DNA of 64,000 nucleotides from Diphasiastrum complanatum (lineage: Eukaryota > Streptophyta > Lycopodiopsida > Lycopodiales > Lycopodiaceae), in NCBI GenBank assembly GCA_029204225.1, contig CM055099.1, forward strand, positions 53,793,470-53,857,469, read 5' to 3'. Position 1 is the first letter of the stretch; every line of letters begins with the position of its first letter. Made by a program: the position numbers and the translations under genes. Below the pieces are notes generated by a model, which was given only the letters and a program-made list of their open reading frames with translations, searched no databases and was not told the DNA's origin. Positions 1,003-60,006 of the stretch are shown here, piece by piece.

Positions 1003-1892
1003 ATGGCTCATACCAAGCAAATAGCACGCCTTACCACATTTGCCCCCCCTCCTCACCCTCCTGTACAAAGGGTAGCGGGCACTGGTAGGAGAGTAGGTCG
1101 GCCCAGAAGACCATGGTTAAGGGATATCAGGAGACTTCAGAGGACAATGAATCTTCTAATTCCCCATGCTCCTTTCTACAGGTCTGTAAGATAAGTAACA
1201 AGGTCACTCTCACATGATGTTTGCTGGAACATAACAGCCCTAGAAGCCCTCCATACTGCCTATGAGGACTTTCAAGTCAAATTCTTTGAGGACTCCACCT
1301 TTGCAAAGTGCACGCAAAGAGAGTTACCCTCATGCCTTAGGACATGCATCTTGTCATGAGGCTGAGGAGTACATACACCCCTAACTACTCAAGTAGTTCC
1401 TCTTCCATTCCCTCCATTTCATCCCACAATAACGAGGATATGAACTCGACTGTAGATAAAATAATATTGGATCTAGATTTAAGTTTAATAATTGATTTTT
1501 ATAAGGATCTTTGTGTAAGATTTCCTGTTGATCCCAAAGATTATTTTTTGGATTCTGAGAGGTATATAATTTTTCATGAGTATGTTGTCAAAGAAATTGA
1601 TAAGCTAGGAGGTCAATTTTCTTTTTGTCTAAGTTCAATTAATTATGTAAATCACATAAATAAAGACTTTTGTGATGCCCTGAAGGAGAAGACCTCAAAT
1701 ATATCAGATCCAGTTGTGGAGGCTGGTTTGATGTATTTTGTAAATAGATGTAAATCCGATGATAGTAAGGACATTGGAGTTGTGTTGTCCGTTTTTGCAC
1801 ACACCCTTCATAGTCCAACTAAGGCGACAAAGTATCTTCTCCATAAAACCTCGGAGACCAAAGTCTTTATTATTCCATACTGCCAAAAGTAA
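1003..1892 (+). pseudogene. Histone H3-like (CENH3-like) pseudogene with long C-terminal extension
   Basis: The N-terminus MAHTKQIARLTT mimics the H3 tail ARTKQTARKST, keeping Lys4 and Arg8 but replacing Lys9. The alpha-N and alpha-1 region reads WLRDIRRLQRTMNLLIP then HAPFYRSVR. After an in-frame TAA (1192-1194) the histone fold continues with ALEALHTAYEDF and FFEDSTFAK. A one-base frameshift near 1308 restores HAKRVTLMP, an internal TAG (1338-1340) stands where H3 has Lys, and DMHLVMRLRS completes the fold. The open frame then continues about 175 codons beyond the normal H3 end, beginning Ser-rich and of unknown fold. A Trp in the loop-1 region and the 'YEDF' sequence recall centromeric H3. 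Two stops and one frameshift make it a pseudogene. A splice-donor-like gtaagt lies at the stop and an acceptor-like ttgcag near 1975. Confidence 0.75.
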
Positions 1893-3009: not shown

Positions 3010-3773
<764 letters not shown>

Positions 3774-6450: not shown

Positions 6451-6469
6451 AGCATCACTAGGTCTACAA

Positions 6470-7969: not shown

Positions 7970-7981
7970 TGGAATCAGAGC
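7970..7981 (+). other. Primer-binding-site-like sequence before a copia gag
   Basis: TGGAATCAGAGC follows a CAACA end typical of an LTR terminus and lies about 150 bp before the gag remnant at 8,124. It differs from the tRNA-iMet primer site at one base. The LTR would occupy some of the interval 7,480-7,969; its start is not identifiable. Confidence 0.5.
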
Positions 7982-8123
7982 AGTAATTCTACTCTCTAAT
8001 TCTTAAAGGCAGACTTAGAGCTTACATTATCAAAATGATTGTATTAATAAAGAGTATACACTTGCTATAATTGTTTCCAGTTATATAATCTACTATCTGC
8101 ATACACTCATCCTGAACTTTTAG

Positions 8124-38231: not shown

Positions 38232-39018
38232 TGTTAAAATTGGCAAAAGCTAACTTGATCAAATCTTGTAAATACCATTATGAGTAGTACATATCATCAT
38301 TAGACATGTGTGGAGCCTATTCCCACGTGTGAAATAAATGCATTTATCATTTAGACGAGTCATATAGGTTGTACATATAATTTCATTTGAGATCTAGTGG
38401 CTAAAATGGCCAAAATCTAGTTTTCTAGCTATATGCCACTTGGCATCATTTTATTGGTAGGAAAAGCTATTTCACATGGATAGGACTGATCTCACACGTG
38501 CCAAGGACTGCTCACATGTGTGAAAACATCAGTAGCAGGTGAGATCGAACTTGTAGTAGATATTTGTGCAAGTTCCTATAAATTCGGAAAATTGCCTAAA
38601 ATCAAGGGAGGTGGCTATAAGTTAGAAAACTTGGTCCATGCACCATATTGATGATTATTGGTGGATCCTTTGATGAGTAGGCACTCTCACACGTGCCAAA
38701 TTAGCTGAGTAAGCATCAGCTCTTGTGTATATATGGTGGCTCATTTGGCCATAATTGACAAGAAAGCTAAATCTTGGTTTTGGTGCATTTCTTGAGTAAT
38801 CTCTCCATTTGTCTTGTGATTTTATGCTTCTAATGGTTTCTAAGCTTAGTGTACTTCATTATTTGCTGGTAGTTCGTACTCTGACAGGTCTTCACACGTG
38901 TGAAACCAACAAGTACAAGTTTTGATCATATTTGATTGTTCTTGTTAGATTTGTTGATGTAGATTTGATCTAGTGCTATCTAATCTTGTGTAGATTGGTA
39001 GATCAATCTAATCTAACA
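38232..39018 (+). repeat. LTR-like block antisense to the H3-like gene
   Basis: Begins TGTTAAAATTGG after gaggaggag and ends ATCTAATCTAACA. It is similar along its length to 2,008-2,756 (opposite orientation). It contains several CACGTG or CACATG sites (38,324-38,331, 38,497, 38,516, 38,690, 38,895) and a TATA-like gtatatatgg near 38,726. The sequence just after it (CCCAATCACACTTG) matches the flank of the other copy. In both loci it lies just 3' of an H3-like gene and points toward it. It could be a 5' LTR of an element that contains the histone module, or a solo LTR duplicated with it. Confidence 0.6.
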
Positions 39019-39075
39019 CCCAATCACACTTGTGGATCTGATTTGGATCCATTCTTGGTCCTTTTTGCTGTACTT

Positions 39076-39705
39076 TCATAGTGTAGTATCTACAAGAATT
39101 ACAGGGGTATCCAAAATAGATGTAGCTATATTTACAACATTATCAAGAGCAGCATTATCTACAATTGGTTCTAGATTAGGCTTCGTAGATTCTGTGGTGT
39201 CTACCCTCCTTATTTTCTTCGGAGCTCTCTTGAGGGCTTTCTGCTTCCTAGCACGCTTGGTAGGAAGATCAGTCCTATCTAGAGGAACAGGTCTGGGAGA
39301 AGCAGACTGAGATACATGTAACTTGCAAAATCTTTTTCTCATTCTCATCAGTAACTGAAAGTCCTTGGGCATTATGGTGACTCTCTTGGAATGAATTGCA
39401 AGCAAAAATGAATTTTCAAAAAAAAGGCTCATATAGTCTTCAACAGCTTCTTGAAGGCACTGAAGAGCAGTGGGTGTGAATCTAACGAGTTGTCCGAGAT
39501 CATTTCTAGTTATGTTTCGGACGTCACAGTAGAATGGAGCTCTGGGAATCAATAGAGTGGTTGATCTCTGATACTTACGTATTTCAGAGAGCCACTTGCT
39601 GCGGTTGCACGTTCTAGGTCTAGCGGGAGGTGTAATGGCAACCGCAGGAGCTGAGGATGAGCCAGTAGAGAAGAAATCTCTCATTGTCTGCTTTCTTCCA
39701 TCCAT
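39076..39705 (-). CDS. Intact CENH3-like histone H3 variant with C-terminal extension
   Basis: A single-exon frame of 209 codons from ATG 39,703-39,705. Residues 1-37 are a short tail beginning MDGRKQTMRDFF, related to ARTKQTARK only around KQT, with no H3 Lys9/Lys27 context. Residues 38-55 (WLSEIRKYQRSTTLLIP) form alpha-N. Residues 56-122 are the histone fold: APFYCDVR, a loop-1 stretch one residue longer than canonical H3, ALQCLQEAVEDYMSLFF, and HSKRVTIMPKDFQLLMRMR. The longer loop and 'EDY' recall centromeric H3. Residues 124-209 are an extension with a basic cluster (KRARKQKALKRAPKKIRR, about 150-167). Normal H3 or CENH3 stops near the end of the fold. It is divergent from gene A across a shared promoter. 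Nuclear, nucleosomal function is inferred; no stop or frameshift is present. Confidence 0.88.
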   Translation of the reverse strand: MDGRKQTMRDFFSTGSSSAPAVAITPPARPRTCNRSKWLSEIRKYQRSTTLLIPRAPFYCDVRNITRNDLGQLVRFTPTALQCLQEAVEDYMSLFFENSFLLAIHSKRVTIMPKDFQLLMRMRKRFCKLHVSQSASPRPVPLDRTDLPTKRARKQKALKRAPKKIRRVDTTESTKPNLEPIVDNAALDNVVNIATSILDTPVILVDTTL

Positions 39706-40550
39706 GGAAGTGTACTAGGGGATATCGCACTTGTGTGTGATGACTAGGATGAGCAGGGAAGGATTATGAAGCCCTCGCAGAAAATCGATATGTACGGAAA
39801 GAATGTACTGTATACGAGCCGAATATTAGAGAGATAGATTAGTATAGAAGAGAGGCGCACAAGTCCGATATGAGGAGACATGTAGGCAGATGTATCGGAC
39901 CTGTGCGCATGGAAGGTAGTAGGCAGAATATCGATTGTGAAGGAGGCGCACAAGTGCGATATGCGGAGCGAAAAAAAAAGTGAAAAAAATTCATCGGAGT
40001 TTGTGATTTTATATCGCGGTTTGCACGTGCGAAAGGACATCATGTCGCACGTGTGGAATTTGTAAGGTCAAATGCGAGAGCGACATGTGTTAGGTTGTCA
40101 GTTTATACGTGTGGGATTTGTACGGGCAAATGCGAGAGCGACACGTGTTGTTGAACAAACGAATGAACATAAGACACGTGTACTGGTGTCATTTCACACG
40201 TGTCCAAGTGTCACCTCACACGTGTCCAGGTGTCACCTCACACATGCCAGTGCCTGCAGTCCAATCAGAAGTAGACACGTGTCCATTGACTGTTGACCAC
40301 ACGTGTGAAAATTTAGTATAAAAGGCACGAAACCCGATTAATTTTTCACTTTTTTCCTTCTCGAAATTTACAGCATATCGCTCTTGTGCACATGCATTGT
40401 TGTCCATTTTTTGCAACAATACCTACTTGCACACAAGTGCGATATTTAGTAGGTACCTACCGTACATATCCCTCTTGTGCGCGATCTTTAGAGTTAGTTT
40501 TGTTTTGTTTGTACTCCCTCACACACAAGTGCGATATCTACGTTAGTTCC
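39706..40550. promoter_or_regulatory. Bidirectional promoter of module copy 2, with two repeated motif classes
   Basis: CACGTG-type sites cluster in the centre (about 40,023, 40,046, 40,106 as ACGTG, 40,141, 40,175, 40,196, 40,218, 40,275, 40,300). Toward gene A a TATA-like tagtataaaaggc lies near 40,313, about 235 bp before the ATG; toward the histone gene the minus strand has gatataaaatc near 40,003-40,013. Outside the CACGTG core, a second motif close to GCACAAGTGCGATAT recurs in both transcribed leaders: 39,721, 39,855, 39,892, 39,946 on the histone side and 40,374, 40,429, 40,466, 40,521 on the A side, in both orientations. The layout parallels 219-1,002 and 54,347-54,790. Regulation is inferred only. 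Confidence 0.65.
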
Positions 40551-42054
40551 ATGGCCTTTTCCTTAGGATCTTCACAAGATTCAGGCCTGAGTTCATTTTT
40601 TTACTGAATTTGGGATTACTGAAAATCTAGACTACTTCCACAGCCTATTCAGGCCATATTCACATGTTTTCAAGACTACACAACCAAATTTTGACGTATT
40701 TTATGAACATTATGTTAGATTCAGAGATATACTTAGTAAGTCTGTTATCTCCATAGGTCCACTCTAGTACATGCATTATAATGATCTTGTTCATTTCTTC
40801 CCAGCTTTCAGACATAGACTAGATAGAATGTTCACCAAATTGTTTGATCTTTTCAAAAGCAGTTCAATCTGTCCTTATTGCAACAAGAAATGTCGATTGA
40901 TTGAATATCAGAGTGGTTTTGTACTTTTCCTATTAGTTCGGATCCCAGATGATGAGGAAGTTTCTGTTGCTGACCCTCCTATGGCATCATTCTCCGTTTA
41001 GTCAGCTATTAAGGATATTAGTCACTTCCTTATCGACACCCCTAATAAGAAAAGTGACTTTATTGATGTAAGTACTGATGTTCTCCGGATTCTTGTATTT
41101 GTTGATAAATCGATCCCTATAGAGGAGTCTAAATGTCTTTTTAATTTGCCTGTATATTATATAAATGACAATGTATATTTTACCAGAACTGATTTATGTA
41201 AATTTTTTGACTATCGTGAAGATGAGGTTCTATGTTTATTATCCGACACAATTTCCAAATTCTCCGAATTTGTGGATTTTTAAAATAGATGACCTTATTT
41301 CTGGAATTGATTTTGATGATGAGGAGGGACTTATGACCGGTGAAGAATGCCTGACTAAGACTTTATCAAATATTGTTGAGGATGGGTGAGGCAGACCCTC
41401 CGATGAAGAATTCACGACATTTCAATCCCAGATGGGCTTCCCTCGTCCATCATTAATGCATTTAACTGATGATTCCACTTCAGTACGTGGTCATTATATT
41501 GATCATCCTGATCTGGTTGCTGCTAATGATGAAGAATGTGTAAGTGTTTAAACTTCCTTGCATTAGAATGTTTTTAACCACTGAATGTGTTTTTGATAAC
41601 ATATTTCTTATTGCAGGATGCTCTCATAATTGATGATTTTGTTGTAGGACGAGGTGGTTCTAGACAACATGCATCATCGTTCCAGAGGGATAGTGGACTT
41701 GGCCACTATCTTAGGCATTTCCTGAAGAATGAGATCTGTATTGCTCATTCCAAGCTGAGTCCAGTTGGGGAGGGTCTTATAATGGCAGTTAAATCTTTAT
41801 CATTTTACCTAGGAGGACATAAATTTGTTAAGACAAATAAGATCATTTTCGTCAAAAGATCTTATGTTTTGAACATTCTAGATTTTACTAATGGGAATGT
41901 TCCTTTAAGGAGCTCCCATTATTCATTGTATTCCACTTATATTTAACTTAGTGGAAATAAGGATAATGCACATATATTAGATGTATACTCTAGCAGAGAA
42001 TTTTTTCATGACAATACTGCCATAGAATCCAACACACAAGCTGATGATGAATAG
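40551..42054 (+). pseudogene. Unknown gene 'A', two exons, left-arm copy
   Basis: ATG 40,551 lies in a leader with repeated motifs. Exon 1 runs to 41,539 (ending ...gaagaatgt before gtaagt) and exon 2 from 41,617 (after ttgcag) to TAG 42,052-42,054. The join keeps the frame. Exon 1 encodes a Ser-rich start, a helical region, CPYCNKKC (a CxxC-x3-C zinc-ribbon-like group at about 40,873) and an acidic part. Exon 2 encodes VGRGGSRQHASSFQRDSGLG, HSKLSPVGEGLIMAVKSL and a basic NKIIFVKRSYVLNI. Comparison with the inverted copy shows a deletion in exon 1, indels and several stops here (40,767, 40,999, 41,281 and within exon 2 near 41,944), so this copy is probably dead. Function is unknown. Confidence 0.7.
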
Positions 42055-42189: not shown

Positions 42190-44785
42190 ATCTAATTTTC
42201 TCTTCTTGTATGAACTTCCATGCTTTTCTAAACTTGTTGTATTGTGTGGACTTTGTTATATGTCGAATCTAAACTCTGCGGTAGAACCACTAAAACAATT
42301 GACAAATGTAGTTTCGTTTTTCATTGGTTCCTCCATGTTGTGTATTTCGATGAAATACTGCTCGTGCTTGCCAATGTGACTTCTCCATCCCTTGTGATGA
42401 CCATACACTGAAGCTTCCATATGTGTTTGCAAAAAATGTTGTATGATCTCTTGGTATGTGCTGCATATGTCAAAATCATAATGTTAGTCTTATGTTTGGA
42501 TCTAAATATATATGAAAAATTGAAAGCATCTTGAAGAATTTATACTAACCATGTAATGAGTGATGTGATCTTCTCCCCATGCTTTTGATACTGCATTAAC
42601 AAACTCGACACAAGTCCTTTGGACAGCTTTCTTATCAATATCAGAAAATTTATCTTTTCTTAAAATAACAATCATACTATCAAGCTTCTTCCATACATCA
42701 ACTTTTAGTACTCTGGTTTTGCCGTCTTTCTCGAAGTCCTGAGTGGCAGCAATAATATCTGTCCAGACTGAGTGTTGAATATTAGAAGCCTTACCAATAT
42801 GATTTGATAGGAAACGACGTGTTTTTGCTCCTCCTATGCTTGGCTTAGTTGGCATGTTGCCATTCTTTCTTGATAGCTTTTCATCTTTTTAAATTTTGAC
42901 ATGTCCCTTATGAAGTCCTGCTTTTGATAAAACATCTTCTAATCGAGAGATAGCTTCATTTGCTAATGATGATGGCTTAATATTCCAAGAAAAAACTATA
43001 TGAAGATAAATGATCTTTTCTATTAATCTAACTTCTGAATGAAGAGTGCAAACATGCACATTTTTCAAGAGGATAGGCAGCACTGGCCTCCAGTTTGGAT
43101 CATTCCTAATAACATTTTTTGCATTTTCATGCAGTACAGACAAGGGTGTTTTGATGTACCACCATGAGAGACATTAAACAGACATTTCAATGTTTTCAAA
43201 TCACCTACTAAGTGCCATTCAACATTGAAATCTCCAACTCCTGGAACATTGAGAAGTCCTCCATCAATATGGTCCTTGATGATCCTAGGATAAGATGTCC
43301 TTGAAAATATCCATGATAATATATCATGATCCTCCTTCAGCACCTGTCCAAAGAATTAATCAGACTTAGTTTACAGTGAATTAATACTATTCAATGAATG
43401 CAATATAATAATGAGGCCATTTACCTGAAACGCTGCCAACCACCATATATCATTTTTTGACTGGACACTGAATCTAAAATCTTCTTGGTCCTCTGTTTGT
43501 GATAGAGCACCATTCATGAGAGTTATACTAACTCTCTCCATCTTCTGCCCTTTTATAATTTCTAACTCATCTAACTTAAGTACTATGATAATTTTGCCAT
43601 TGACCTTTTCATAGGTTATATCATAGAATGTGATGATGCATCTTAGCAAGTAATTTAGATCAACAAATAAGTTGTTTGATGAATTATAGAATATCGATCT
43701 TCCATCAGTTTCATACACCTCCTCAATATGAAATGGAGTTCCAGTGATCTTATGCATACCTATGTTTAATGTATCCCTCTCTTTCTTCAAGTGATATGTC
43801 CTAGGGATTGGGACTTTTCTAATTTGAACTTCCTTAAAAGCTTCTCTAATTAGTTTAAATATTGCTGCTCCTGCTAATACCTGCAAAATCACAAGCACCC
43901 TGAACTATAGTCTTATCCAAAAAAATTTGAATGTCCACCATCAAAGACTCTGTTATTTTACACTTTACATTTGAGCTCCTATTGTTCATCATGATATGCT
44001 CAGTGCATTTGCCTGTCAATATTGTGCCCAATGACATTCCTAGTGAAGCATTGTCTTTAATATTGCAAGGAGCTACTAATGCAGATCTGCGAAAAAAACA
44101 GATAGTTAACAGAATATCACCATAGCTGAAATTAAATCCAAATGTCATTAAAAAAAATCAGAATATGCTTACTTGAATGCACAGATCCTTAACCTCCTTT
44201 TGAAAGCGTTTGAATATCCTTTTAACTTTGTCGCTTTTGCTTCTTACTTTCAACCTTCTTCTTTGTAAATTCCACATCCTTCAATAATTGTAAGTTTTCA
44301 ATACAAATAGATTGTAAGATTGATTGCATTTGCTCTAGTTTTGATTTGATATTGATTGTTATCTTCTGTAATGATTCATTATTTTTTTTAAGTTGTTCAT
44401 TTTTTTCTAATGTCTTTTGGAGAAGACAATCTCTATTCTCACAATAAGAGGATATCCGAATTAACTCACCTTCTAAAAAGTGAACTTTATTCATATAAAG
44501 TTGTTTTCCATGGTTATGCAATCTTTCACAATATCCTAGTAATCCACTATGCCCATTGCATATCCATGTAACTATATGAGTTATTGAGGAGAATGTGGGA
44601 TGTGTCAAAGTGCTTGGATCTTGTGGATATAATGTTCCATCTATCCACAAATCCAAGTTTTTTTTTCCTTCTGCCCTGTAACGAGAATGATCCTCAACAG
44701 ATATTTGAATTCCTTTGCCTCCTCTTCTCTGCAAAGGTGCCAAATCAATAGGGATATCCACATGTAGATGATACAATGTCATCAT
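42190..44785 (-). pseudogene. Multi-exon putative DDE transposase gene 'B/C', left-arm copy
   Basis: On the minus strand, exon 1 starts near ATG 44,783-44,785 after a poly-T tract and encodes a globular part (LDLWIDGTLYPQDPSTLTHP) and a coiled coil (EQLKKNNESLQK...). Exon 2 starts at 44,086 (SALVAPCNIKDNASLGMSLG). Exon 3 (about 43,880-43,425) carries IIVLKLDELEIIKGQ, the candidate first Asp at 43,569-43,571. The next exon from 43,343 has HLVGDLKTLKC, the second Asp at 43,200-43,202, then HPCLYC. The last exon (from about 42,461) has VWSSQGMEKSHW, the Glu at 42,383-42,385. A roughly 250-residue insertion separates Asp 2 and Glu. Stops (for example near 42,890) and frameshifts disable it. I cannot assign a superfamily. 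Confidence 0.6.
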
Positions 44786-45045: not shown

Positions 45046-46466
45046 TGTAAACACTTTGCAGTTTTTCCTGATTCGAATTTGGGGATGGCGATCATATTCT
45101 AGATCCAGTGAAAATATTGCCCTTTTTGTAACCAATGGAGGGAATATTTTTGAATTTAGTCAAGTTATACTGTGAACTGTTTACAGTTCTTAACTATGTG
45201 ACTATAGACACTGTGGTTAGATCATTGGGAGTTGGGGAGGCCTCAAGAGTGGTGGGGGCAAGCAAATAAACAATATTGTTTTTTTTTATTTTGATATTTT
45301 TCTATATCCTACATGGCATTCCTTAAAGGGTCTTTTTGATATTGAGAACTCCTCTTATGTCATTTGGTGACGTTTGTCAAGTGATCCGAGAGGGAATCAT
45401 GAGCCATTACTTCTATTCTTCCGAGATATACGCTTATCTATATCTTGGTGACATCTTGATCAAATTATAGCATTGTGGAGATTGTAGCTACTTTGACGTC
45501 CATGAGTGCATTGTAGATAGGCTTTGTGCCTTAATGATGCTTTATCCACCCGCTATGTAGAAGTGACACAACCTTCGTTAGAAAATCTATTACGATCGCC
45601 TGGTTTGGCCCATAATACAAATGCTTGAAATGGTTTAGAGAAGGAGAATTTTAATGAGTGTGAGTGATGAGTAGCTGATGATCTCCATAGATAAATGAGA
45701 CTGAAATATGATTGAGAGTGAATGTATAACCCTTCATAAGCTATGTCCCTAGAGGATTGGAATGTCATGGATTGCTTGAAAGAAGGTTATTGTCCCTGTT
45801 AGAAATGAGATCATTATCTGTTGTTGTGAGAAGTGCTTTGGATTGACTAGAAACATCGTACTGCTTGAAGATAGACCATTTGGATGAATTATCCATTGGG
45901 GGAGATCTTTCTTCGTTGTACTGATGAACTGAGATGGATGAAGAGATGTGAATCAGCTACTCTTATTAGCTCTAAAATAGGCTCCAAGACTAGAAGAAAA
46001 ACTTTGTGTTGTTAGGGGCTTATTGTCTTTCCACTAAACTAGTCCACAAGCCTAGAAGCCTTTGAGCATGCTGTGTTAAAGATGGAGTGCAACACCTCAC
46101 ATCCAAGTTAGGAAATGTCCTATGAGAGCTCTATTACAGCTAGTAGAGAGATAGTTGCCTTGAAGATAGATGGAAGTGACAATACCAATGGTCTACAAAT
46201 TTCATGTGTCTGAGATTGCAAGTGATGAGAATGATTCTATTGTTTAGATTGTCAGCCGCACACCTAGCAAATTTGATGAAAGAATATTGGTTGAAAGGTA
46301 GTTATCATACCATTGAAATGTCTTGAGAATTTGCTAGTTGGATGAGTATGTTGCTTAGGTTGTCTGCCACATGCTTGATATCTTTTGACTTGTGTCACAT
46401 GTTGCTTTGAAATACAATCCTAATAATGAAGGTTCAGGTGGTTAGCATCACACAATGATGTGTGCT
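45046..46466. mobile_element. 1.4-kb insertion between blocks C and D (left arm only), with repeat R copy 2
   Basis: In the inverted partner, block C' adjoins block D' directly (about 58,866). Here the two are separated by 1.4 kb, which must be inserted or have been deleted from the partner. It contains repeat R (45,811-46,275), matching 37,070-37,515 in reverse. At 45,321-45,358 it has a segment like the terminal repeat of the small element at 57,289-57,667. No gene is recognised and the ends are not resolved. Confidence 0.6.
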
Positions 46467-48270
46467 AATCCCTCAAATAGAGTGCCAAGAGCATTATGGG
46501 AGCTGATGATTGAGTATCACATGATAAGTCATTACTAAGTGGAACTGATAAAGAGAATCATATATGTGTTATTGATCTAGACTAATTATGGTTGGCATCC
46601 TAAGGGCCCAACAATCCTCATAGGGACTAGCTGAGAACTAGATAAGGACCCTATGTCTATGATTGATTGACGTCTTCAGCTGCCTAGGGGTACTCTTGTG
46701 TGGGTACCTATCCAGGCAAGGCTATCCAACAAACCCTGATGACAAGGTTAAGAATGAGCATCATGAATTAGTAGAGATGGTCAAACAACATATGGGAGAT
46801 ATGCATGCAACATTGCTAGCTTTGACTCTAGATGTGAGACAACTTAGAAATCAACAAGAGTTGATCAACCAGCACCGTGCACATGAGTCCATACCATTGT
46901 GTCGGTTCATGCCACTAATGATTGTAGGAATACAATATATGGATACTACAATAGGGTAGGCCATCTAGAAACAACTTGTCGAATTCAGAAGAGAGATGAA
47001 AAGCATAGGGGAAAACTGGTCCAAAGAGTTTCAAAGCGATAAACACCCTCACAAATCAACCTACTAGAGCATAGAATAGAAGAGTAGAGATAAGACAACT
47101 TGAAAGCTACTAGACAAAGCCATACAGATAGATAGAGATTCAACACTCATCACTCGAACTTGAAGTTGGACTTGCACTCAAAATATACCAGTAATGATTA
47201 TCACATAGGAAGAGCCATGGATGAGGGCCTGCTATATGAGTATTTTGGATACATAGGTGTAGAAACTATGTACCCAACACTCATGGGCCATGAATTCGGA
47301 ATGCCAGATCATCTCCAGAGTGAAGAGTTTTTGACTATCCCCTTGAGCCATAACATATCTAATCCCTTCCTTGATGAGATAGACAAATCCACGAATGTGA
47401 CTAGTGAGTCGTTGACAAATGGATGGAGCGAACTACCTTTTGACCAGCTAAGTGCATCACTTGATATTGACTGAGTGTCCATAGACATCCAAGAGAAGCA
47501 CATAGTATTCATTGAGAGTCCAAAGTCTATGGTGCCATTATTGAATGAATCTTCAGAGACTTTCTTATCTAGCAATTCAAATCAAGTTATAGAGACAAAT
47601 ACAGAGTTGGAGGAATTTCTATTTGATCTATACCTACATATAGATCTTTCATTACAAACGCCTTATTTGCCAGACCATGATTCAACACTTGTGATAGAAA
47701 GAAGTACACAAGATATACCGCTTGAGGATACTCCATCAGAAATAGAAGTGGATGATTCTACGGGACCTATAAAATCCTCATTGCAAATACTTGGTCCATC
47801 ATTTAAGTCAAATTCCATTGAGGACCTAGTAGAATCCTTGTCAAATTTTCTACTAGCCATAGCACTCTTGTTGAGTAAATTTGAGCCACTTGATAGTGAG
47901 CTAGATTCCATCATAGAAAGAGTGATCCCTTTTTATTCTAGTCTGAATGACATTAGGCCAGAAGTATTGATACAAGAATCTTCAAAACAATGTATGGATG
48001 AGAATTTGCAATCCAATTTCGAGGAATTTATGATAGAAGAGGAGTCCAAAATGGGTCTTGAGCAATTTATTGAAAGCATTGATTGTTTACAATCTGAGAA
48101 TGAAATTGTGATATTCAATGATGAGACCGTGGTGGATGAAAAACTTGAAGAGATGGTATCTGATATGAAAAACATAGCTCTAAAAGAAGATGACAATTTC
48201 TTTCGAAATGATCCAGTGATACAAACCCCTATTCTTGGAACTACTACGCTTAGGGTGAGAAGAATCATTG
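46467..48270 (+). pseudogene. Block D, N-terminal part: coiled-coil and acidic frames upstream of gag
   Basis: Frames 46,663-46,959, 47,160-47,474 and 47,475-48,290 are conserved in the inverted copy. The first has a helical heptad-like stretch (HELVEMVKQHMGDMHATLLA, LRNQQELINQH) of the kind found N-terminal in some gypsy gag proteins. The others are acidic and Ser-rich without a known domain; a TGA at 47,472-47,474 separates them and is also present in the other copy. A single decayed polyprotein is possible. Confidence 0.55.
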
Positions 48271-48279
48271 AGCCAATAG

Positions 48280-49443
48280 TTGTTCCCTGATGACACTGAG
48301 GCAATACCAAAAATACAAGGATCATTACCCCTATTTCATGGCACAGGTAATGAGGCTGTACACAATCACATTGATGATTTTGAGATGCTTATGTCTATCC
48401 ATAGAGTTTTTAACCCTGCACATAGACTAATGTTGTTTGCTACTACCTTGGTAGGAACAGCCAGGAGATGATACAACAATCTCCCTAAGGCCTCTATCAC
48501 TACACTTGAAGAGTTCTATCAGAAATTTTTGAAAGAATTCAGAGTCAATTACAATGTAGATAGTATGATGTTTGCACTATCTACAATACAACAAGATTCT
48601 ACCTAAGATGTACGTTAGTACACTAGACGGCTGAGAGAGTTAGTGCGCCAGCTAAACCAAGGCCTTTCAATGGAATTGCCCTCAAAGCTAGTACTTGACT
48701 GTTTTCTAAGAGGATTGCGAAGTGAGGTATAGTTGGGTGTACGTCAATCTGGAGTTTTTACTTTTGAGGAGGCTGTGACTAGTGCCAACAATATAGAACA
48801 AGCTTATATCGATACATATGGGACTAGAAATACTACAAGGACAATAGAGACCTCAATTCCTCATAGAAGTCAACATACATTTAGAGATTATCGAGAATCA
48901 GGTACACGAGTGTCAGATTTCGCACAACGACCATGTAGGGTACCTGATATTACTTTGGCCAAAGAAGGGCTAGTACGATGCAAAAATGTCTCTAGTTTGA
49001 AGACTCCACCAGTTGATACTCCTACTTTTGTAGGAGGTAGTACACCTCCATGTCCAAAAAGCTTTTGTAGATATTATAGGAAGTGTGACCATTCAAAGAA
49101 TGAGTGTTTGTCACAGAAGAATGATTTGAATACCGAAAATCAAATATAGGTGCCGATTAGCCATGATATCAATAATGGAAAAGTACTTGAGTCCAGACAA
49201 AATTTGAGTCAATCCCAAATAGATCGTAGCATGATCTCTCAAGGTGATATGATTAGAATGAAAGGTGAGAAACCCCCGTTAAACTTGGCAGAAACACTCA
49301 TAGAGGAGAAATGGCTGAGGGTAGCGCAAAATAGGATACGGACAGAAACCTCTAATGAAGAGTGTGAGGGAGCAAGTAAGCGGCTGGTAGACTTCAAGGA
49401 CACTGAACCACAAAAACAGATCATCCTTGATGACTATCGTTGA
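48280..49443 (+). pseudogene. Block D gag: Ty3/gypsy-like capsid with degenerate zinc knuckle
   Basis: Starting near 48,283 the frame reads IQGSLPLFHGTGNEAVHNHI, MLFATTLVGTARR, then after stops EEFYQKFLKEFRVNYNVDS and LSTIQQDST, the retrotransposon gag (PF03732-type) pattern. Continuing frames give RRLRELVRQLNQGLSMELP and EEAVTSANNIEQAYI. The knuckle FCRYYRKCDHSKNEC has the spacing of CX2CX4HX4C, but the second Cys is Tyr, in both copies. Stops at about 48,469, 48,603, 48,615 and 48,731 disable it. No protease, RT or integrase follows. Confidence 0.8.
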
Positions 49444-49795
49444 AATAGAAGAACCTATACCCCTAATCGGAGGTCATATAGATGAAGAGACCAAGGGGGT
49501 GCTATTTGAAGCATTCAAATGGGATGAGAGAATGGTGAATTATGATGTTGACTCTGATACTGATGAGGAAGGATCTGAGTGCATGGAGGTTACTGAATTA
49601 CAATATTATCCTAGAATGAGAAACATGGCTTTTCAGATGAGTATTGAGGACGATACAGATGATATTGTATCTCCTATTTTGGATACAACCTTAGAGGAAG
49701 ATGATGAGCCCTATGGTATAGAAGAAATGTTCAACATGACCAACGAGATTTTTCTACCTCCACTTTTGAGTTTAGATGATCAAGACAACCATTAA
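49427..49795 (+). CDS. Acidic 122-codon frame, identical protein in both inverted copies
   Basis: The translated frame (acidic, beginning MMTIVEIEEPIPL) is identical at the protein level to 55,539-55,171 on the other strand. It follows gag and may be the C-terminal part of the same decayed polyprotein, because it lacks its own promoter and its function is unrecognised. Identity more likely reflects a recent duplication than selection. Block D then continues non-coding to about 50,170, with an A-rich run at about 50,089-50,102. Confidence 0.45.
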   Translation: MMTIVEIEEPIPLIGGHIDEETKGVLFEAFKWDERMVNYDVDSDTDEEGSECMEVTELQYYPRMRNMAFQMSIEDDTDDIVSPILDTTLEEDDEPYGIEEMFNMTNEIFLPPLLSLDDQDNH

Positions 49796-50400
49796 GATCC
49801 ATATCAACAACTAGTATTGGGATGGGATCCACACCTTTTGTCCACCTATGAAATTTCTTGCATATTTGAAAGAGATAAGAGGAAAGAAAAATGCATATCT
49901 ATTAGGGCTGAAACGCATGGTGAATATCCAGACAATAAGATTGATGTTGGATGATTTATAAGCTTATGAAAATCCACCCTTGTCCTTAAGGGCTGAGGGT
50001 TAGTAGAGTAGTTTTTAGTTGGTTTTTTGTTGATTGTTTGGTTATGGTTGTAGATTTTATGGTTCAGTGAGCTGACATTTCTTTATTTGAAAAAAAAAAA
50101 AACCTTCAGTATAGTCAATATGCATGTGCAATCTATTGTAGTACAGTTACTAGATATCCTTGATGATGAGATGAACCTCTCATACACAAATATCACATGT
50201 ATCATTTTAGACAATGTTTTGAACATTTGCTGCAAGCTTGAATGATTGCATCCATGCCATGCCTTATGCACTTTGTGGAAAGAAAAATGGGCATTGATCT
50301 TATTCTGAATTGAGGGGCATGAGTGCATGATAGAGCATGGTGTGGGCCAAAGAGGAAAAATGGAGACACTAAAAACATTACAAGTGGGGTAGACGAGTGA

Positions 50401-50501: not shown

Positions 50502-51530
50502 ATGTCTTCACCATCATCCCAGTACAAGCCACTTTCCAACACAGAGAGAGTCCAAGAAGTAGAGGAAGAGGTATAGGAAGAAACAGAGATTGTTGCTAAG
50601 TAGGACCAAATGCAGGAGGATATACAACAAGAGCCATCACAAGAAGATCAAGAGCTTCCTAACATTCAAAAGAAAGATGACAATGACATCGAGCCACCAG
50701 TCTTGGACAAAGAGCTTTACACGAAGACCTTCGGGACGCTGTTAGCAGACATTCAAGCCTCAATCCAGCATTTTGTGAATCTAGAAAAAGTTTCACGAAA
50801 GCTGAGAAGTAAATATGATGCTACAAGGGCAAACCTTATCCAGAGGGATGAGGAGCTACAAGTAATCAGATTAGAATTGCACAAGAAGACCAAGGAGCTT
50901 GAGGAAGCTCAAGCTGAATTGATCAAGAAGGACACATCCCTAGAGGAAGCCCAAGACAGGTTTGACGCCACTCTAGAGGCATTGGAGACAATGCAGGACC
51001 AAAGTAACCAGTTTGAGAATGAAAACTCAAACAACAACTCTAGAACCTTCAGACATTACTCCAAGAAGAGCGACATGCTCGTGTAGCCTAGAATAGCACC
51101 AAAAAGGAGCTTCAAGATAAATTGAAGGACACCGAGACAAACCAGAAGCAGCTGAAGGAATATGTTCTCCAACTGCAAAGTTCGATAGAAATGATAAAGG
51201 AGGGGAACCAAATCTACAAGAAGTAGAGGTTGAGGAAGCCATCCTCTGGCGAATCAATGTTGAGGTGACTCTGGGAGCTTGTATATCTCACGGGCGATAT
51301 AGAATTGACCTTGTAGCATGGAAAGAAATCCAAGAAAGAATAATTCAGACCTTCTAGCTGCAGTATCTATAGCCCCAAATGGCAGAATACGAAAAGCTAA
51401 AGGACGAATTGGAAGAGGCAATGCTCAATGCAAACCAGATTTAGGTTTCAGAAGAAGAACCAGTCCAGCAGCAACAAGACCATGCAACGCAGATGGACAC
51501 AATCAGTATAGACTGAAGCTGAATAGTATT
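50502..51530 (+). pseudogene. Coiled-coil protein pseudogene in the spacer between inverted arms
   Basis: ATG 50,502 opens MSSPSSQYKPLSNTERVQEV, with in-frame stops near 50,568 and 50,600. The frame continues to 51,086 with long heptad-type helices (LRSKYDATRANLIQRDEEL, HKKTKELEEAQAELIKKD, LEEAQDRFDATLEALETMQ). A frameshift near 51,050 leads to a further coiled-coil stretch (TKKELQDKLKDTETNQKQLK) with more stops. Gag-associated coiled-coil proteins of plant retroelements and structural host proteins could both look like this. No specific family is recognised. Confidence 0.5.
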
Positions 51531-51540
51531 AATACATTGT

Positions 51541-52760
51541 AAACTAAGTATGATTAATTCTTTGGATAGGTGCTGAAAGTGGATCATGATATATTATCAT
51601 GGATATTCTCAAGGACATCTTATCCTAGGATCATCAAGGACCATATGGATGGAGGATTTCTCAATGTTCCAGGAGTTGGAGACTTCAATGTTGAATGACA
51701 CTTAGTAGGTGATTTGAAAACATTGAAATGTATGTATAATGTCTCTCACGGTGCTACATCAAAACACCCTTGTTTGTATCGCATGAGAATGGCAAAAGAT
51801 GTAACTAGGAGTACATGAATTACTAGAGAATATGTAGATCCAAACTGGAAGCCTGTGCTGCCTATCCCCTTAAAAAATGTGCATGTTTGCGCTCTTCATG
51901 CAGAAGTTAGATTAATAGAAAAGATCATTTATCTTCATATAGTTTTTGCTTGGAATACTAAGCCAACATCATTAGCAAAGGAAGCTATCTCTCGATTAGA
52001 AGATGTTTTATCAAAAGCAGAACTCCATAAAGGACATGTCAAAATTCAAAAAGGTGAAAAGCTTTCAGGAAAGAATGGGAACATGCCAACTAAGCCAAGC
52101 ATAGGAGGAGCAAAATCACGTTGTTTTCTATCAAATCATACTGGTAAGGCTTCTAATATTCAACCCTCAGTCTGGACAGATATTATTGTTGCCACTCAGG
52201 ACTTCGAGAAAGACGGCAAAACCAGAGTACTAAAAGTTGATGTATGGAAAAATCTTGATAGTATGATTGCTATTTTAAGAAAAGAAAAATGCTCTGATAT
52301 TGATAAGAAAGCTATCCAAAGGACTTGTGTTGAATTTGTTAATGCAATATCAAAAGCATGGGGAGAAGATCACATCACTCATTACATGGTTAGTATAAAA
52401 TTTTCAAAATGCTTTCAAATTTTCATATATATTTAGATTTAAACATAAGACTAACATTATGATTTTGACATATGCAGCACATACTAAGAAATCATATAGC
52501 ATTTTTTGCAAATACATATGAAAGCTTGAGTGTATGGTCATCACAAGGGATGGAGAAGTCACACTGGCAAGCAGGAGCAACATTTCATCGAAATACACAA
52601 CATGGAGGAACCAATGAAAAACAAAACTACATTTGTCAATTGTATTAGTGGTTCTACCGCAGAGTTCAGATTCGACATATAACAAAGTCCACACAATACA
52701 ACAAGTTTAGAAAAGCATGCAAGCTCATACAGGAAGAGAAAATTAGATGATTGCTATGGT
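51541..52760 (+). pseudogene. Gene B/C, 3' exons, right-arm copy (B')
   Basis: Similarity to the left arm starts in the intron before exon 51,570 (acceptor tttggatag). The exon runs to 52,388 with HLVGDLKTLKC (second Asp, 51,711-51,713), then HPCLY with the next Cys changed to Arg. Intron 52,389-52,477 follows (gttagt...tgcag), then a last exon with VWSSQGMEKSHW (Glu, 52,553-52,555) and QHGGTNEKQNYICQLY. Stops near 51,698 and 51,818 disable it. The exon with the first Asp is missing, and exons 1-2 lie 7 kb away at 59,134-60,006. The mid-part from 51,855 is a longer open frame than in the left copy. Confidence 0.65.
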
Positions 52761-52838
52761 AGATTCTATGGTAGTATCAGATCTTGTATCAGATTCTATG
52801 TAGTATTGATTGTATTATAACAAAATACAAAGTGTCCA

Positions 52839-54346
52839 CTATTCATCATCAGCTTGTGTGTCGGATTCTATGGCAGTATTGTCATGAAAAAATTCTCTGC
52901 TAGAGTATACATCTAATATATGTGCATTATCCTTATTTCCACTAAGCTCAATATAAGTGGAATACAATGAATAATGGGAGCTCCTTAAAGGAACATTCCC
53001 ATCAGTAAAGCCTAAAATGTTCAAAACATAAGATCTTTTGACGAAAATGATCTTATTTGTCTTAACAAATTTATGTCCTCCTAGGTAAAATGATAAAGAT
53101 TTAACTGCCATTATAAGACCCTCCCCAACTGGACTCAGCTTGGAATGAGCAATACAGATCTCATTCTTCAGGAAATGCCTAAGATAGTGGCCAAGTCCAC
53201 TATCCCTCTGGAACGAGGATGCATGTTGTCTGGAACCACCTCGTCCTACAACAAAATCATCAATTATGAGAGCATCCTGCAATAAGAAATATGTTAGCAA
53301 AAACACATTCAGTGGTTAAAAACATTCTAATGCAAGGAAGTTTAAACACTTACACATTCTTCATCATCAGCAGCAACCAGATCAGGATGATCAATATAAT
53401 GACCACGTACTGAAGTGGAATCATCAGTTAAATGCATTAATGATGGACGAGGGAAGCCCATCTGGGATTGAAATGTCGTGAATTCTTCATCGGAGGGTCT
53501 GCCTCACCCATCCTCAACAATATTTGATAAAGTCTTAGTCAGGCATTCTTCACCGGTCATAAGTCCCTCCTCATCATCAAAATCAATTCCAGAAATAAGG
53601 TCATCTGTCTCAAAATCTACAAAGTCGGAGAATTGTGTCGGATAATAAGCATAGAACCTCGTCCTCATGATAGTCAAAAAATTTACATAAATCAGCAGTA
53701 GTAAAATATACATCGTCATTAATATAATATACAGGCAAATTGAAAAGACATTTTGAATCCTCCATAGATTTGGATTCATCATCAGATGTATTTTGGCCAA
53801 TGAAAGAATCTCGGAGAACATCAATATTTAAATCAATGAAGTCACTTTCTTTATCAGGAGTGTCGATAAGAAAGTGACTGATATCCTTAATGACTGACTG
53901 AACAGAGGAGGGTGCAAAAGGAGGGTCAGCAACATGAAACTCATCATCATTGGGGATCTGAACTAAAAGAAAAAGTACGAAACCACTCTGATATTAAACC
54001 AATCGACATTTCTTGTTGCAATACGGACACATAGAATTACTTTTGAAAAGATCAGACAATTTGGTGAACAGTCTATCCAGTCTATATCTAAAAGCTGGGA
54101 AGAAATGAACAAGAGCAGTATAATGCATGTACTGGAGTTGACCTATGGAGAAAACAGGCTTGCTAAGTATATCTTTTAATCTAACATAATGTTCATAAAA
54201 TACGTCAGAATTTGGTTGTGCAGTCCTGAAAACATGTAGATATGGCCCGAATAGGCTGTGGAAGTAGTCCAGATTTCAGTAATCCCAAATTCACTCAGAA
54301 ATGAACTCAAGCCTGATTCTTGTGAGGATGATGAGGAAGAGGCCAC
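52839..54346 (-). pseudogene. Unknown gene 'A', two exons, right-arm copy (A')
   Basis: On the minus strand, exon 1 starts at 54,346 where the ATG of the left copy is GTG, and ends at 53,354. Intron 53,353-53,277 carries gtaagt and ttgcag like its partner. Exon 2 runs 53,276-52,839 and is open, continuing past the point where the left copy stops (near 41,944) to a shared end ...QADDE. Exon 1 keeps an acidic segment (DDESKSMEDSK) lost from the left copy, and CPYCNKKC (about 54,015). Start loss, a one-base frameshift near 54,285, a stop after the CxxC region and a frameshift near 53,620 disable it. Confidence 0.7.
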
Positions 54347-54790
54347 ACTTGTGTGCGTGGGAGAACTGAACCAAAACTAGCAATCAAAATGGCGCAGAAG
54401 ATGGATATGTACGACAGACAGATTCAGAATATTGCACTTGTGCACGAGTAGGTATACTTGCAAGCAAACGGACAGAAATGAGTGCGCACAAAAGCGATAT
54501 GTCGTGAATTTCGAGAACGCAAAAGGTAAAAAATTATTCGATTTTCGTGCCATTTATACTAAATTTTTGCACGTGTGGTCAACGGACTTATGACACGTGT
54601 CTACTTTCAATTCGAGAACAGGCGCAGGCACATGTGAGATGACACCTGCACACATGTGAAATGACACCTAGACACATGTCACATGTTCATTCGAGTGCTT
54701 ATAAACATGTGTCGCTCTCGCATTTGTCCGTACAACTCCCACACGTGTGACAGGACGTTCTTTCGCACGTGCGAACCCCGATATAAAATT
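54347..54790. promoter_or_regulatory. Promoter of gene A', truncated bidirectional region
   Basis: Matches the A side and core of 39,990-40,550. CACGTG-type sites lie at 54,571, 54,593, 54,743 and 54,767, and several others have become CACATG or ACATGT. TATA-like sequences occur on both sides (minus-strand tagtataaatggc near 54,555; plus-strand gatataaaatt near 54,779). Motif-two relics lie at 54,431 and 54,482. The histone gene that should follow is replaced by block D'. Confidence 0.55.
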
Positions 54791-55170
54791 ACAAATTTCA
54801 TCATCGAGGGTATCTAGTAACTGTACTGCATTAGATTGCACATGCATATTGACTATACTGAAGGTTTTTTTTTTTTTTTAAATAAAGAACTGTCAGCTCA
54901 CTAAACCATAAAACCTACAACCATAACCAAACAATCAACAAAAAACCAACTAAAAACTTCTCTACTAACCCTCACCCCTTAAGGACAAGGGTGGATTCAT
55001 AAGCTTATAAATCATCCAACATCAATCTTATTGTTTGGATATTCGCCATGCGTTTCAACCCTAATAGATATGCAAGTTTCTTTCCTCTTATCTCTTTCAA
55101 ATATGCAAGAAATTTCATAGGTGGACAAAAGGTGTGGATCCCATCCCAATACTAGTTGTTGATATGGATT

Positions 55171-58100
55171 TTAATGGTTGTCTTGATCATCTAAACTCAA
55201 AAGTGGAGGTAGAAAAATCTCATTGGTCATGTTGAACATTTCTTCTATACCATAGGGCTCATCATCTTCCTCTAAGGTTGTATCCAAAATAGGAGATACA
55301 ATATCATCTGTATCATCCTCAATACTCATTTGAAAAGCCATGTTTCTCATTCTAGGATAATATTGTAATTCAGTAACCTCCATGCACTCAGATCCTTCCT
55401 CATCAGTATCAGAGTCAACATCATAATTCACCATTCTCTCATCCCATTTGAATGCTTCAAATAGCACCCCCTTGGTCTCTTCATCTATATGACCTCCGAT
55501 TAGGGGTATAGGTTCTTCTATTTCAACGATAGTCATCAAGGATGATCTGTTTTTGTGGTTCAGTGTCCTTGAAGTCTACCAGCCGCTTACTTGCTCCCTC
55601 ACACTCTTCATTAGAGGTTTCTGTCCGTATCCTATTTTGGGCTACCCTCAGTCATTTCTCCTCTATGAGTGTTTCTGCCAAGTTTATCGGGGGTTTCTCA
55701 CCTTTCATTCTAATGATATCACTTTGAGAGATCATGCTACAATCTATTTGGGATTGACTCAAATTTTGTCTGGACTCAAGTACTTTTCCATTATTAATAT
55801 CATGGCTTATCGGCACCTATATTTGATTTTCGGTATTCAAATCATTCTTCTGTGACAAACACTCATTCTTTGAATGGTCACACTTCCTATAATATCTACA
55901 AAAGCTTTTTGGATATGGAGGTGTACTGCCTCCTACAAAAGTAGGAGTATCAACTGGTGGAGTCTTCAAGCTAGAGACATTTTTGCATCGTACTAGCCCT
56001 TCTTTGGCCAAAGTAATATCAGGTACCCTACATGGTTGTGGTGCAGAATCTGACACTCGTGTACCTGATACTCGATAATCTCTAAACGTATGTTGACTTC
56101 TATGAGAAATTGAGGTCTCTATTGTCCTTGTAGTATTTCTAGTCTCATATGTATTGATATAAGCTTGTTCTATATTGTTGGCACTAGTCACAACCTCCTT
56201 AAAAGTAAAAACTCCAGATTGACGTACAACCAACTATACCTCACTTCGCAATCCTCTTAGAAAACAATCAAGTACTAGCTTTGAGGGCAATTCCATTGAA
56301 AGGCTTAGGTTTAGCTGGCGCAGTAACTCTCTCAGTCGTCTAGTGTACTAATGTACATCTTCAGTAGAATCTTGTTGTATTGTAGATAGTGCAAACATCA
56401 TACTATCTACATTGTAATTGACTCTGAATTGTTTCAAAAATTCCTGATAGAACTCTTCAAGTGTAGTGCTAGAGGCCTTAGGGAGATTGTTGTACCATCT
56501 TCTGGCTGTTCCTACCAAGGTAGTAGCAAACAACATTAGTCTATGTGCAGGGTTATAAACTCTATTGATAGACATAAGTATCTCAAAATCATCAATGTGA
56601 TTGTGTACAGCCTCATTACCTGTGCCATGAAATAGGGGTAATGATCCTTGTATTTTTGGTAGTGCCTCAGTGTCATCAAGGAACAACTATTCGCTCAATG
56701 ATTCTTCTCAGCCTAAGCATAGTAGGTCCAAGAATAGGGGTTTGTATCACTGGATCATTTAAGAAGAGATTGTCATCTTCTTTTAGAACTATGCTTTTCA
56801 TATCAGATACCATCTCTTCAAGTTTTTCATCCACCACGGTCTCATCATTGAATATCACAATTTCATTCTCAGATCGTAAACAATCAATGCTTTCAATCAA
56901 CTGCTCAAGACCCAGTTTGGACTCCTCTTCTATCATAAATTCCTCGAAATTGGATTGCAAATTCTCATCCATACATTGTTTTGAAGATTCTTGTATCGAT
57001 ACTTCTGGCCTAATGTCATTCAGACTAGAATAAACAGGGATCACTCTTTCTATGATGGAATCTAGCTCACTATCAAGTGGCTCAAATTTACTCAACAAGA
57101 GTGTTATGGCTAGTAGAAAATTTGACAAGGATCCTACTAGGTCCTCAATGGAATTTGACTTAAATGATGGACCAAGTATTTGCAATGAGGATTTTATAGG
57201 TCCCGTAGAATCATCCACTTCTATTTCTGATGGAGTATCTTCAAGCGATATATCTTGTGTACTTCTTTCTATCACAAGTGTTGATTCCATTAGGGGAGAT
57301 TTGAGCTCCAAAAAGACCCTTTAAGAATGCGTGCAAGATATCTTTTATATTATTAAAATATTGTAGCACTAATACTTTTGACTTGCCATAACTTTTTAGT
57401 CAAAGCTCAGAAGTTATGTTATCTAACATATCATTGGAAAGCCCTTGTTGAGCGCTTTCCAATGCACCAAACTCCGCTAAATTCGGACTTACCAATAAAA
57501 AGTTATGCCATTTTTAGTGTGGAATCAAAATGTGGACTCAAAAAAGTTATGTTACATAGATTTCAAAATTGAGTGTTTTGATTGGTCCATGTGTAAGAAA
57601 AATTTGAGAAAAAAATATAAAAAGAATCTTCACAAAGGGTCTTTTTTGGATTTAGAACTCCTCTAATGATGGTCTGGCAAATAAGACGTTTGTAATGAAA
57701 GATCTATAGCTAGGTACAGATCAAATAGAAATTCCTTCAACTCTGTATTTGTCTCTATAACTTGATTTGAATTGCTAGATAAGAAAGTTTGGGAAAATTC
57801 ATTCAATAATGGCACCATAGACTCTGGACTCTCAATGAATACTATGTGCTTCTCTTGGATGTCTATGGACACTCAGTCAATATCAAGTGATGCACTTAGC
57901 TGGTCAAAAGGTAGTTCGCTCCATCCATTTGTCAACGACTCACTAGTCACACTCGTGGATTCGTCTATCTCGTCAAGGAAGGGATTAGATATGTTATGGC
58001 TCAAGGGGATAGTAAAAAACTCTTCACTCTGGAGATGATCTAGCATTCTGAATTCATGGCCCATGAGTGTTGGGTACATAGTTTCTACACCTATGTATCC

Positions 58101-58639: not shown

Positions 58640-58865
58640 GCAAGAGTACCCCTAGCTAGCTGAAGAAGTCAATCAATCGTAGACATAGGGTCCTTATCTG
58701 GTTCTCAACTAGTCCCTATGAGGATTGTTGGGGCCTTAGGATGCCAAACATAATTAGTCTAGATCAATAACACATATATGATTCTCTTTATCATTCCACT
58801 TAGTAATGACTTATCATGTGATACTCAATCATCAGCTCCAATAATGCCCTTGGCACTCTATCTGT

Positions 58866-60006
58866 GGGATCAGCATATGCATTCCTTCCACGAGAATGGA
58901 AATATGGGTGCCAATTATGAACACCATCATCACCTTGGAATGGAAATATGAGCACCAACTACTTATTGGAATGAAAAAATGAGCAGCATTTCCAAATTTG
59001 GATCAAGCATGCAAGCATGGAGATTGGATTGATCGTACAAAGTATATAATATAATCAAAGATGAGTATTTTGTTTTGCTTCATAGAATCTGGTCATAGTA
59101 CTTTGATGCAACTGATCACTCTTTTTTTTTTTTATGATGACATTGTATCATCTACATGTGGATATCCCTGCTGATTTGGCACCTTTGAAGAGAGGAGAAA
59201 GCAAAGGAATTCAAATATCTGCTGAGGATCGTTCTCGTTACAGGGCAGAAGGAAAAAAAAAAAACTTGGATTTGTGGATAGATGGAACATTATATCCACA
59301 AGATCCAAGCACTTTGACACATCCCACATTCTCCTCAATAACTCATTTAGATACATGGATATGCAATGGGCATAGTGGATTACTAGGATATTGTGAAAGA
59401 TTGCATAACCATGGAAAACAACTTTATATGAATAAAGTTCACTTTTTAGAAGGTGAGTTAATTCGAATATCCTCTTATTGTCTAAATAGAGATTGTCATT
59501 TCCAAAAGACATTAGAAGAAAATGAACAACTTAAAAAAAATAATGAATCATCACAAAAGATAACAATCAATATCAAATCAGAACTAGAGCAAATGCAATC
59601 AATCTTACAATCTATTCATATTGAAAACTTACAATTATTGAAGGATGTGGAATTGGCAAAGAAGGCTGAAAGTAAGAAGTGAAAGCAAAAAGTTACAAGG
59701 ATATTCAAATGCTTTCAAAAGGAGGTTATCGAAATAGAAGGATCCATGCATTCAAGTAAGCATATTCTGATTTTTGTAAATTTTTCAATGACATTTGGAT
59801 TTAATTTCAGCTATGGTGATATTCTGTTAACTATCTGCTTTTTTTGCAGATCTGCATTAGTAGCTCCTCGGAATATTAAAGACAATGCTTCACTAGGAAT
59901 GTCATTGGGCACGATATTGATAGGCAAATGCACTGAGCATATCATGATGAACAATAGGAGTTCAAATGTAAAGTGTAAAATAACAGAGTCTTTGATGGTG
60001 GACATA
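58866..60006 (+). pseudogene. Gene B/C, 5' exons, right-arm copy (C')
   Basis: Exon 1 opens at ATG 59,134 right after a poly-T tract and runs as an open frame to 59,682 with LDLWIDGTLYPQDPSTLTHP and the coiled coil EQLKKNNESSQK; similarity continues to a donor near 59,757. Exon 2 begins about 59,850 after tttttgcag (SALVAPRNIKDNASLGMSLG) and similarity to the left arm stops at about 60,006. The upstream part, 58,866-59,133, matches 44,800-45,045, holds a twice-repeated 'ggaaatatg-g-gcca' segment, and is the likely promoter side. The exon with the first catalytic Asp does not follow. Confidence 0.65.

Follow-up and report, generated by a model that had tools for sequence, protein, structure and literature searches.

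A probable RAG1-fold DNA transposon that carries its own histone H3-like gene in Diphasiastrum complanatum

To what kind of genetic unit does a histone H3-like gene belong when it stands head to head with a second gene, and what might a histone do there? The question is raised by a locus in a window of 64,000 nucleotides (the whole stretch of DNA analysed here) from contig CM055099.1 of Diphasiastrum complanatum, where an H3-like gene and its neighbour, gene A, diverge from a shared promoter. An earlier note on this DNA proposed a mobile element that bears its own H3-like histone, divergent with gene A in a pair that recurs in the window. The proposal holds, and the pair recurs across the genome: the histone gene is linked to a transposase gene, here called X, and to terminal repeats. 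We are highly confident that the feature in the window is a broken, 3'-truncated copy of a cut-and-paste DNA transposon of about 9 kb with terminal inverted repeats (TIRs), of the CMCT/RAG1-fold type, which carries X, gene A in a divergent pair with H3, and an additional gene, B. This confidence applies to the identity of the element and not to the mechanism by which it may use the histone.

The histone gene and the element that carries it

The open reading frame at 39076-39705 (minus strand) encodes an H3-like protein of 209 amino acids, as first described. It matches the Pfam Histone model (E 1.3e-24), its top relative in the PDB is canonical H3 (E 3e-20), and it has both the fold and the N-terminal tail of a histone H3. 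Alignment also bears out the description of its loop 1, which is one residue longer than that of canonical H3. The earlier note further described an 86-residue C-terminal extension. About 86 residues do follow the H3 similarity, which stops near residue 123, but the 209-residue length is that of a truncated protein of about 337 amino acids: homology to 28 other loci (a set that leaves out the window copy and its 99.5% duplicate) breaks off at 39081-39085, and in most of the 28 the coding sequence, intact or broken, goes on to about 337 amino acids. We therefore reject 209 amino acids as the true length in this family. The duplicate (L010, G000:C8:53574436-53575062) lies 258 kb away, is 99.5% identical and has the same cut. 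A search of a database of 5.8 billion proteins returned H3s and H3 variants only, at no more than 58% identity over 38-58% of the query, and no close relative.

The setting of the gene is plain in a complete copy on contig C1, E7 (locus L057), which measures 9,016 bp between inverted ends and has H3 inside. In the orientation of H3, its order is TIR, transposase X (about 560-3420, with two stops), gene A (reversed, 3363-4929), H3 (Met at 5703, frame open for 337 amino acids), gene B (reversed open reading frame, 7679-8161) and TIR; E7 itself sits within a copia integrase. In family I, the H3 family of the window, the histone is thus located between the element ends, and terminal repeats bound transposase and cargo as in a TIR DNA transposon. 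The window copy, read on the minus strand from 45359 to 39081, corresponds to E7 1-6327 at 87.8% identity; this is the first 6.3 kb, its homology to E7 ends at H3 residue 208, and the rest is absent. Its parts, and the other element and H3 sequences of the window, are as follows.

39076..39081, minus strand: junction at which the 3' part of the element (E7 6328-9016) is missing, from comparison with other loci and E7
39076..39705, minus strand: truncated H3-like histone gene with 209 of about 337 amino acids (Pfam, PDB, longer relatives)
39706..40550, no strand: promoter region shared by the divergent genes A and H3; nine CACAAGTGCGATAT-like sites and a 20-bp inverted pair
40551..41548, plus strand: gene A exon 1, in three frame-shifted pieces here, 74-82% to E7 gene A
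41617..42051, plus strand: gene A exon 2, 97% to the second copy in the window
42248..42463, minus strand: end of transposase X with H(4)H and third acid (QGME), 89% to E7 piece X4
42550..43355, minus strand: region of transposase X that has the second Asp (GDLKTLK) and C(2)C, with a frameshift in this copy, 80-91% to E7 X3 in two frames; relatives
43422..44130, minus strand: middle of transposase X with first catalytic Asp (KLDE), 85-91% to E7 piece X2; relatives
44348..44659, minus strand: N-terminal part of transposase X, 93% to E7 piece Xn
45325..45359, minus strand: left TIR, 35 bp, 97% to the right arm of E7, with a sharp edge against unrelated flank at 45359
51522..54748, plus strand: second partial copy, inverted (3' part of X and gene A), 87.8% to E7 1996-5297
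58874..60005, plus strand: third partial copy (5' part of X), 93% to E7 309-1448
1003..1892, plus strand: H3-like pseudogene of another family, IIb, interrupted by stops and a frameshift; its divergent neighbour, a gene A relative, starts at 218 and exits the window leftward

The TIR is 35 bp long, with termini CATTAG..CTAATG. Past it, one end reads AAGGA and the other GTAAA in six of the seven end pairs first checked; in the seventh, both ends are alike and the flanks are inverted. L046, L047 and L048 have a sharp left boundary in common, CATTAGAGGAGTTCTC.., which recurs with one change at window position 45359 and is absent from L045 and L049. Its 22-mer counts 972 + 1,019 in the genome at up to two mismatches (reversed control, 0), and a 40-mer of the left end occurs exactly 502 times (control, 0).

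These ends, the transposase and the histone occur together across the genome. A search of its 1.74 Gb with the 209-residue frame yielded 7,508 candidates at first look; 150 were scored, and the others are unconfirmed. All 150 lie at E<=3.1e-95 with 75-100% identity, on every large contig from C1 to C24 and on many small ones, so the copy number of family I is at least 150. When these were set against 150 matches of X, 14 pairs lay within 10 kb of each other, where chance would give 0.26; all 14 are on one strand, and X lies 3.2-4.1 kb upstream in 12 (in the remaining two it lies 1.1 kb upstream and 6 kb downstream). A second set of 134 non-canonical H3 matches gave 13 pairs with X, 12 of them on one strand and 9 with X 2-5 kb upstream. 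Among 100 listed left ends of the 40-mer, those within 9 kb were upstream and on the same strand for H3 matches (7/7) and X matches (10/10) alike. The earlier note had allowed for only two copies with equal flanks, explained by segmental duplication of a host histone gene; we reject this because 150 of 150 scored matches are strong and occur on every contig from C1 to C24, and because copies are linked to transposase and terminal repeats.

Element ends also crowd one region, C1:64.97-66.68 Mb, where 28 of the matches listed fall within 1.7 Mb. Of the 24 C1 sites among the exact left ends listed, only 2 lie there, and one pair has near-identical inverted flanks; on these grounds the cluster looks like local amplification of a unit with the right end, perhaps near a centromere.

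Gene A and H3 start head to head with 845 bp between them, in agreement with the spacing of about 0.8 kb first reported. Exact CACAAGTGCGATAT copies are confined, within the window, to this promoter (sites with as many as 3 mismatches count as CACAAGTGCGATAT-like), and a perfect inverted pair of 20 bp adjoins both start codons; E7 has seven CACAAGTGCGATAT-like sites around the same stretch. The earlier note saw the same pair at 1-1,892. An H3 and a divergent gene A relative do stand there, about 785 bp apart counted to the H3 start at 1003, but they form a different and broken family: the H3 core is 48-50% identical to family I, and the gene A relative, mostly beyond the left window edge, 27-35%. 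No known domain appeared in gene A, with E7 exon 1 giving no Pfam match over the cut-off and an uninformative fold prediction (predicted local distance difference test, pLDDT, 37), nor did gene B match Pfam. A second relative of gene A exon 2 (42% identity), perhaps of another family, lies near a family I copy at L045:112-582.

Several smaller observations concern the neighbourhood. Window 57548-57668 is the right end of another subfamily, with TIR variant CATTAGAGGAGTTCTAAATCC and 78% identity to the right end of E7; left of the window, L089:3567-3944 is a miniature element of 378 bp with ends of the same kind. Window 46463-50172 and 54795-58875 are inverted copies, 95-97% identical, of a Ty3-type gag region. 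The stretches 38304-39037 and 1989-2696 are 65% alike, each downstream of an H3 copy of a different family; recombination may have given the truncated window copy a 3' flank like that of family II.

Transposase X and its class

The CMCT clade comprises EnSpm/CACTA, Mirage, Chapaev, Transib, Plavaka, ESTA and Lanisha, and its elements make target-site duplications (TSDs) of 2-5 bp (PMC12730594; here and below, statements from cited papers hold for the excerpts of them available). X and its relatives have the catalytic motif of this clade, a DDE triad in which C(2)C and H(3-4)H precede the last E; in the relative P0123 it falls at D411, D508, C528/C531, H761/H766 and E785. P0120, P0123, E7 and the window copy have H(4)H together with the third acid, and the other relatives end before this point. 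The last H of H(4)H stands 19-20 residues from the third acid, as in RAG1. The predicted model of P0123 (mean pLDDT 70) has a RAG1-type fold, with a TM-score of 0.50 by target length against RAG1/Transib, and the CA..TG termini are those of the clade.

Target-site duplications are mostly missing. Of eight end pairs, six share no base, one shares 1 bp and one 3 bp, and the joined flanks of two end pairs read through in frame against copia relatives. The element does not fit EnSpm/CACTA, given its CAT ends, a 3-bp match in one of the eight pairs and no Pfam model, and none of the eight pairs has the 5-bp TSD of Transib and RAGL. No Pfam transposase model matched the window pieces of X or four relatives.

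H3 families, their tails and selection on the core

A genome search with moss CENH3 found further H3s, among which the host CENH3 was not distinguishable from element copies. At least five related families emerge: I (window), II (MARTKQTARPKS..), IIb (left window edge), III (MARTKQTARDPRV..), IV and V. Family III has a long proline-rich insert between the tail and a CENH3-like core, of about 300 residues in the locus read (L080+L090, script coordinates 4549-5787, with one interrupting stop); such an insert was likewise noted for L074, L085 and L086. The neighbours recur as well: gene A relatives adjoin IIb and II H3s, a gene B relative (34% over 111 amino acids) stands beside family III, and one family III locus carries an in-frame fusion with an X-like N-terminal part (P0137 matched at 8e-8 in a blastp comparison with 38 proteins).

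The tails were compared for families I, II, IIb, III and IV. The N-terminus is MARTKQTAR-like in II, III (one locus) and IV, MAHTKQIAR in IIb and MDRRKQTRR in I, where 29 of the 30 copies that have a residue at the position of K4 have Lys. None of 31 family I copies contains ARK[ST], the sequence in which K9 and K27 lie, and this motif is also absent from the tails of II (three loci), III (one), IV (one) and IIb (window); each of eight host H3 loci has it twice. Most aligned rows of families I-V retain the core segment [IV]H.KRVT[IL].P[KQ]D; a few, L022, L088 and P0161 among them, show single changes.

The label "centromere-type" given in the earlier note is not established. In an unrooted tree of 27 rows, three of them CENH3, all 14 element-type H3s fall on one side of a branch (89/85), and plant CENH3s lie between them and canonical H3s; CENH3 is not monophyletic, and branches are long. 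The longer loop 1 occurs in families I and IV only, and II, III and V lack it. The tree is compatible with one H3 capture, without being proof of it.

The nucleosome core of the family I H3 is under strong purifying selection. In 31 copies (near-identical duplicates dropped; residue numbers run two ahead of the Met), the median ratio of nonsynonymous to synonymous rates (dN/dS) is 0.17 in the histone core, 0.47 in the N-tail, 0.63 in the linker and 0.61 in the C-terminal part, this last value with frameshifted copies included. A second set, seven copies that were aligned across the element, has a core value of 0.14 when read in frame, against 0.97 and 1.60 in the wrong frames; the values are 0.65 for the linker, 0.29 for the C-terminal part (10 pairs), 0.37-0.42 for gene A and 0.43-0.63 for X. 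In the same copies, silent divergence of the H3 core is 0.51, four to five times that of X (about 0.09-0.12), and the most diverged stretch of the element, across E7, L045-L049 and the window copy, is the A/H3 promoter. This unevenness suggests that old A/H3 modules may have been exchanged between younger elements.

What the histone may do

We consider it plausible rather than probable that the element uses its own H3 to resist silencing. The element H3 would enter nucleosomes with host H4, a step suggested by the core segment kept in most rows; it would offer a K4-type N-terminus without the ARKS site for silencing marks at K9 and K27, and element chromatin might thereby stay open for expression or access of the transposase. 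Gene A and the promoter motif array may regulate the element H3 or help to deposit it. Somewhat less plausible is a broader version, in which a superfamily of RAG1-fold transposons has long carried its own nucleosomal H3, with K4 kept, marks at K9 and K27 impossible, a chromatin shield and insertion without TSDs.

A number of points weigh against this account of the element and its histone. The likeness to RAG1 is one of fold, taken from the model of a relative rather than of X; the A1 profile found no RAG1 among PDB sequences, and Pfam offers no transposase model. TSDs are mostly lacking here, whereas the CMCT clade makes them. Many element copies hold stops, as does X in the complete E7, so activity of the element is not shown. 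H3 between TIRs is seen for family I only; X did not turn up within 9 kb of the IIb copy, nor in 5 kb of sequence upstream of one family III H3; one H3-X pair has its members on opposite strands, and the spacing differs in several. The absence of ARKS could result from decay in a tail under weak constraint, and family II retains a Lys one place on (PKS). The copies used for dN/dS were chosen by protein similarity to the window, which can lower dN; this is countered by the roughly fourfold difference between core and linker in the same copies. Finally, the element and its H3 are known here from genomic sequence alone.

The other explanations fare differently against the same evidence. That the element histone mimics CENH3, loading at centromeres or steering insertion there, draws on the LLIP.APF segment and longer loop of family I, the family III core that resembles plant CENH3, the position of element H3s on the CENH3 side of canonical H3 in the unrooted tree, and the 28 ends that crowd on C1 among the matches listed. 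We think it unlikely: each of C1-C24 has scored copies, very few of the exact left ends listed fall in the C1 cluster, one pair in that cluster has near-identical inverted flanks that fit local amplification, and families II, III and V lack the longer loop. RAG2 reads H3K4me3, and a histone that shapes the transpososome, or bridges a RAG1-like transposase to chromatin in the manner of RAG2, would accord with the RAG1-like fold of an X relative, the K4 region kept in the five families read and the X-A-H3 order of most pairs. This role is equally doubtful, as purifying selection is strongest on the nucleosome core and not on linker or tail; no RAG2-like gene was noticed, and no search was aimed at RAG2.

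DNA transposons do capture host genes, and L010 is a near-identical duplicate of the window locus; both would suit a histone that is a useless passenger or a segmental duplication of a host gene. A core dN/dS of 0.14-0.17, where the wrong frames give values close to 1 or higher, the occurrence of related H3s in at least five families and the 150 scored copies of family I make this very improbable. Ownership by nested Ty3/copia retrotransposons or an endogenous virus, suggested by the Ty3 gag and copia pieces close by, is scarcely credible, and we reject it: E7 extends from one TIR to the other and has itself landed in a copia integrase, and scans of viral contigs gave no relative. No retroelement with H3 between long terminal repeats was seen, though no dedicated search was made.

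A transposon with its own gene for a component of the nucleosome would represent a new means by which selfish DNA copes with chromatin, and histone variants could be tested directly as anti-silencing factors. The element would also supply, by predicted fold, a plant-side relative of RAG1-type transposases, and its many families, with differing tails and cores, amount to a natural mutagenesis of H3. For annotation, four genes of families III and V (O6H91_05G054700, 13G100400, 07G108800 and 11G030400) are currently listed as host proteins. No transposon-encoded core histone was among the matches listed in full-text literature searches, which are thin on subscription journals and preprints.

Elements of the CMCT clade are among the nearest known systems; one of them is Lanisha, reportedly described from a moss. 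Lanisha is called similar to EnSpm (PMC12730594), and its transposase is known here by its place in the clade only. With the CMCT clade at large the element shares a DDE transposase with C(2)C and H(3-4)H, the RAG1-type fold and CA..TG ends; it differs in its mostly missing TSDs, in the lack of a Pfam transposase match and in having H3 and genes A and B aboard (PMC12730594). RAGL and Transib share the transposase fold and make 5-bp TSDs (PMC7204232, PMC4411706); the element has an H3 gene, and the profile search of PDB sequences gave no sequence-level match to RAG1. Plant CENH3 shares the core signature, and the element H3 is not shown to be centromeric. Viral histones are likewise encoded by a selfish element, which here is a DNA transposon of the host genome and no virus (PMC9145170). 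Transposons have captured chromatin genes before: TET/JBP dioxygenases in fungi, SET methyltransferases in HarbingerS and silencing regulators in plant Vandal elements (PMC12730594, PMC5735166). Like these, the element is a DNA transposon with a gene of the kind that acts on chromatin or silencing; unlike them, its cargo is the core histone itself.
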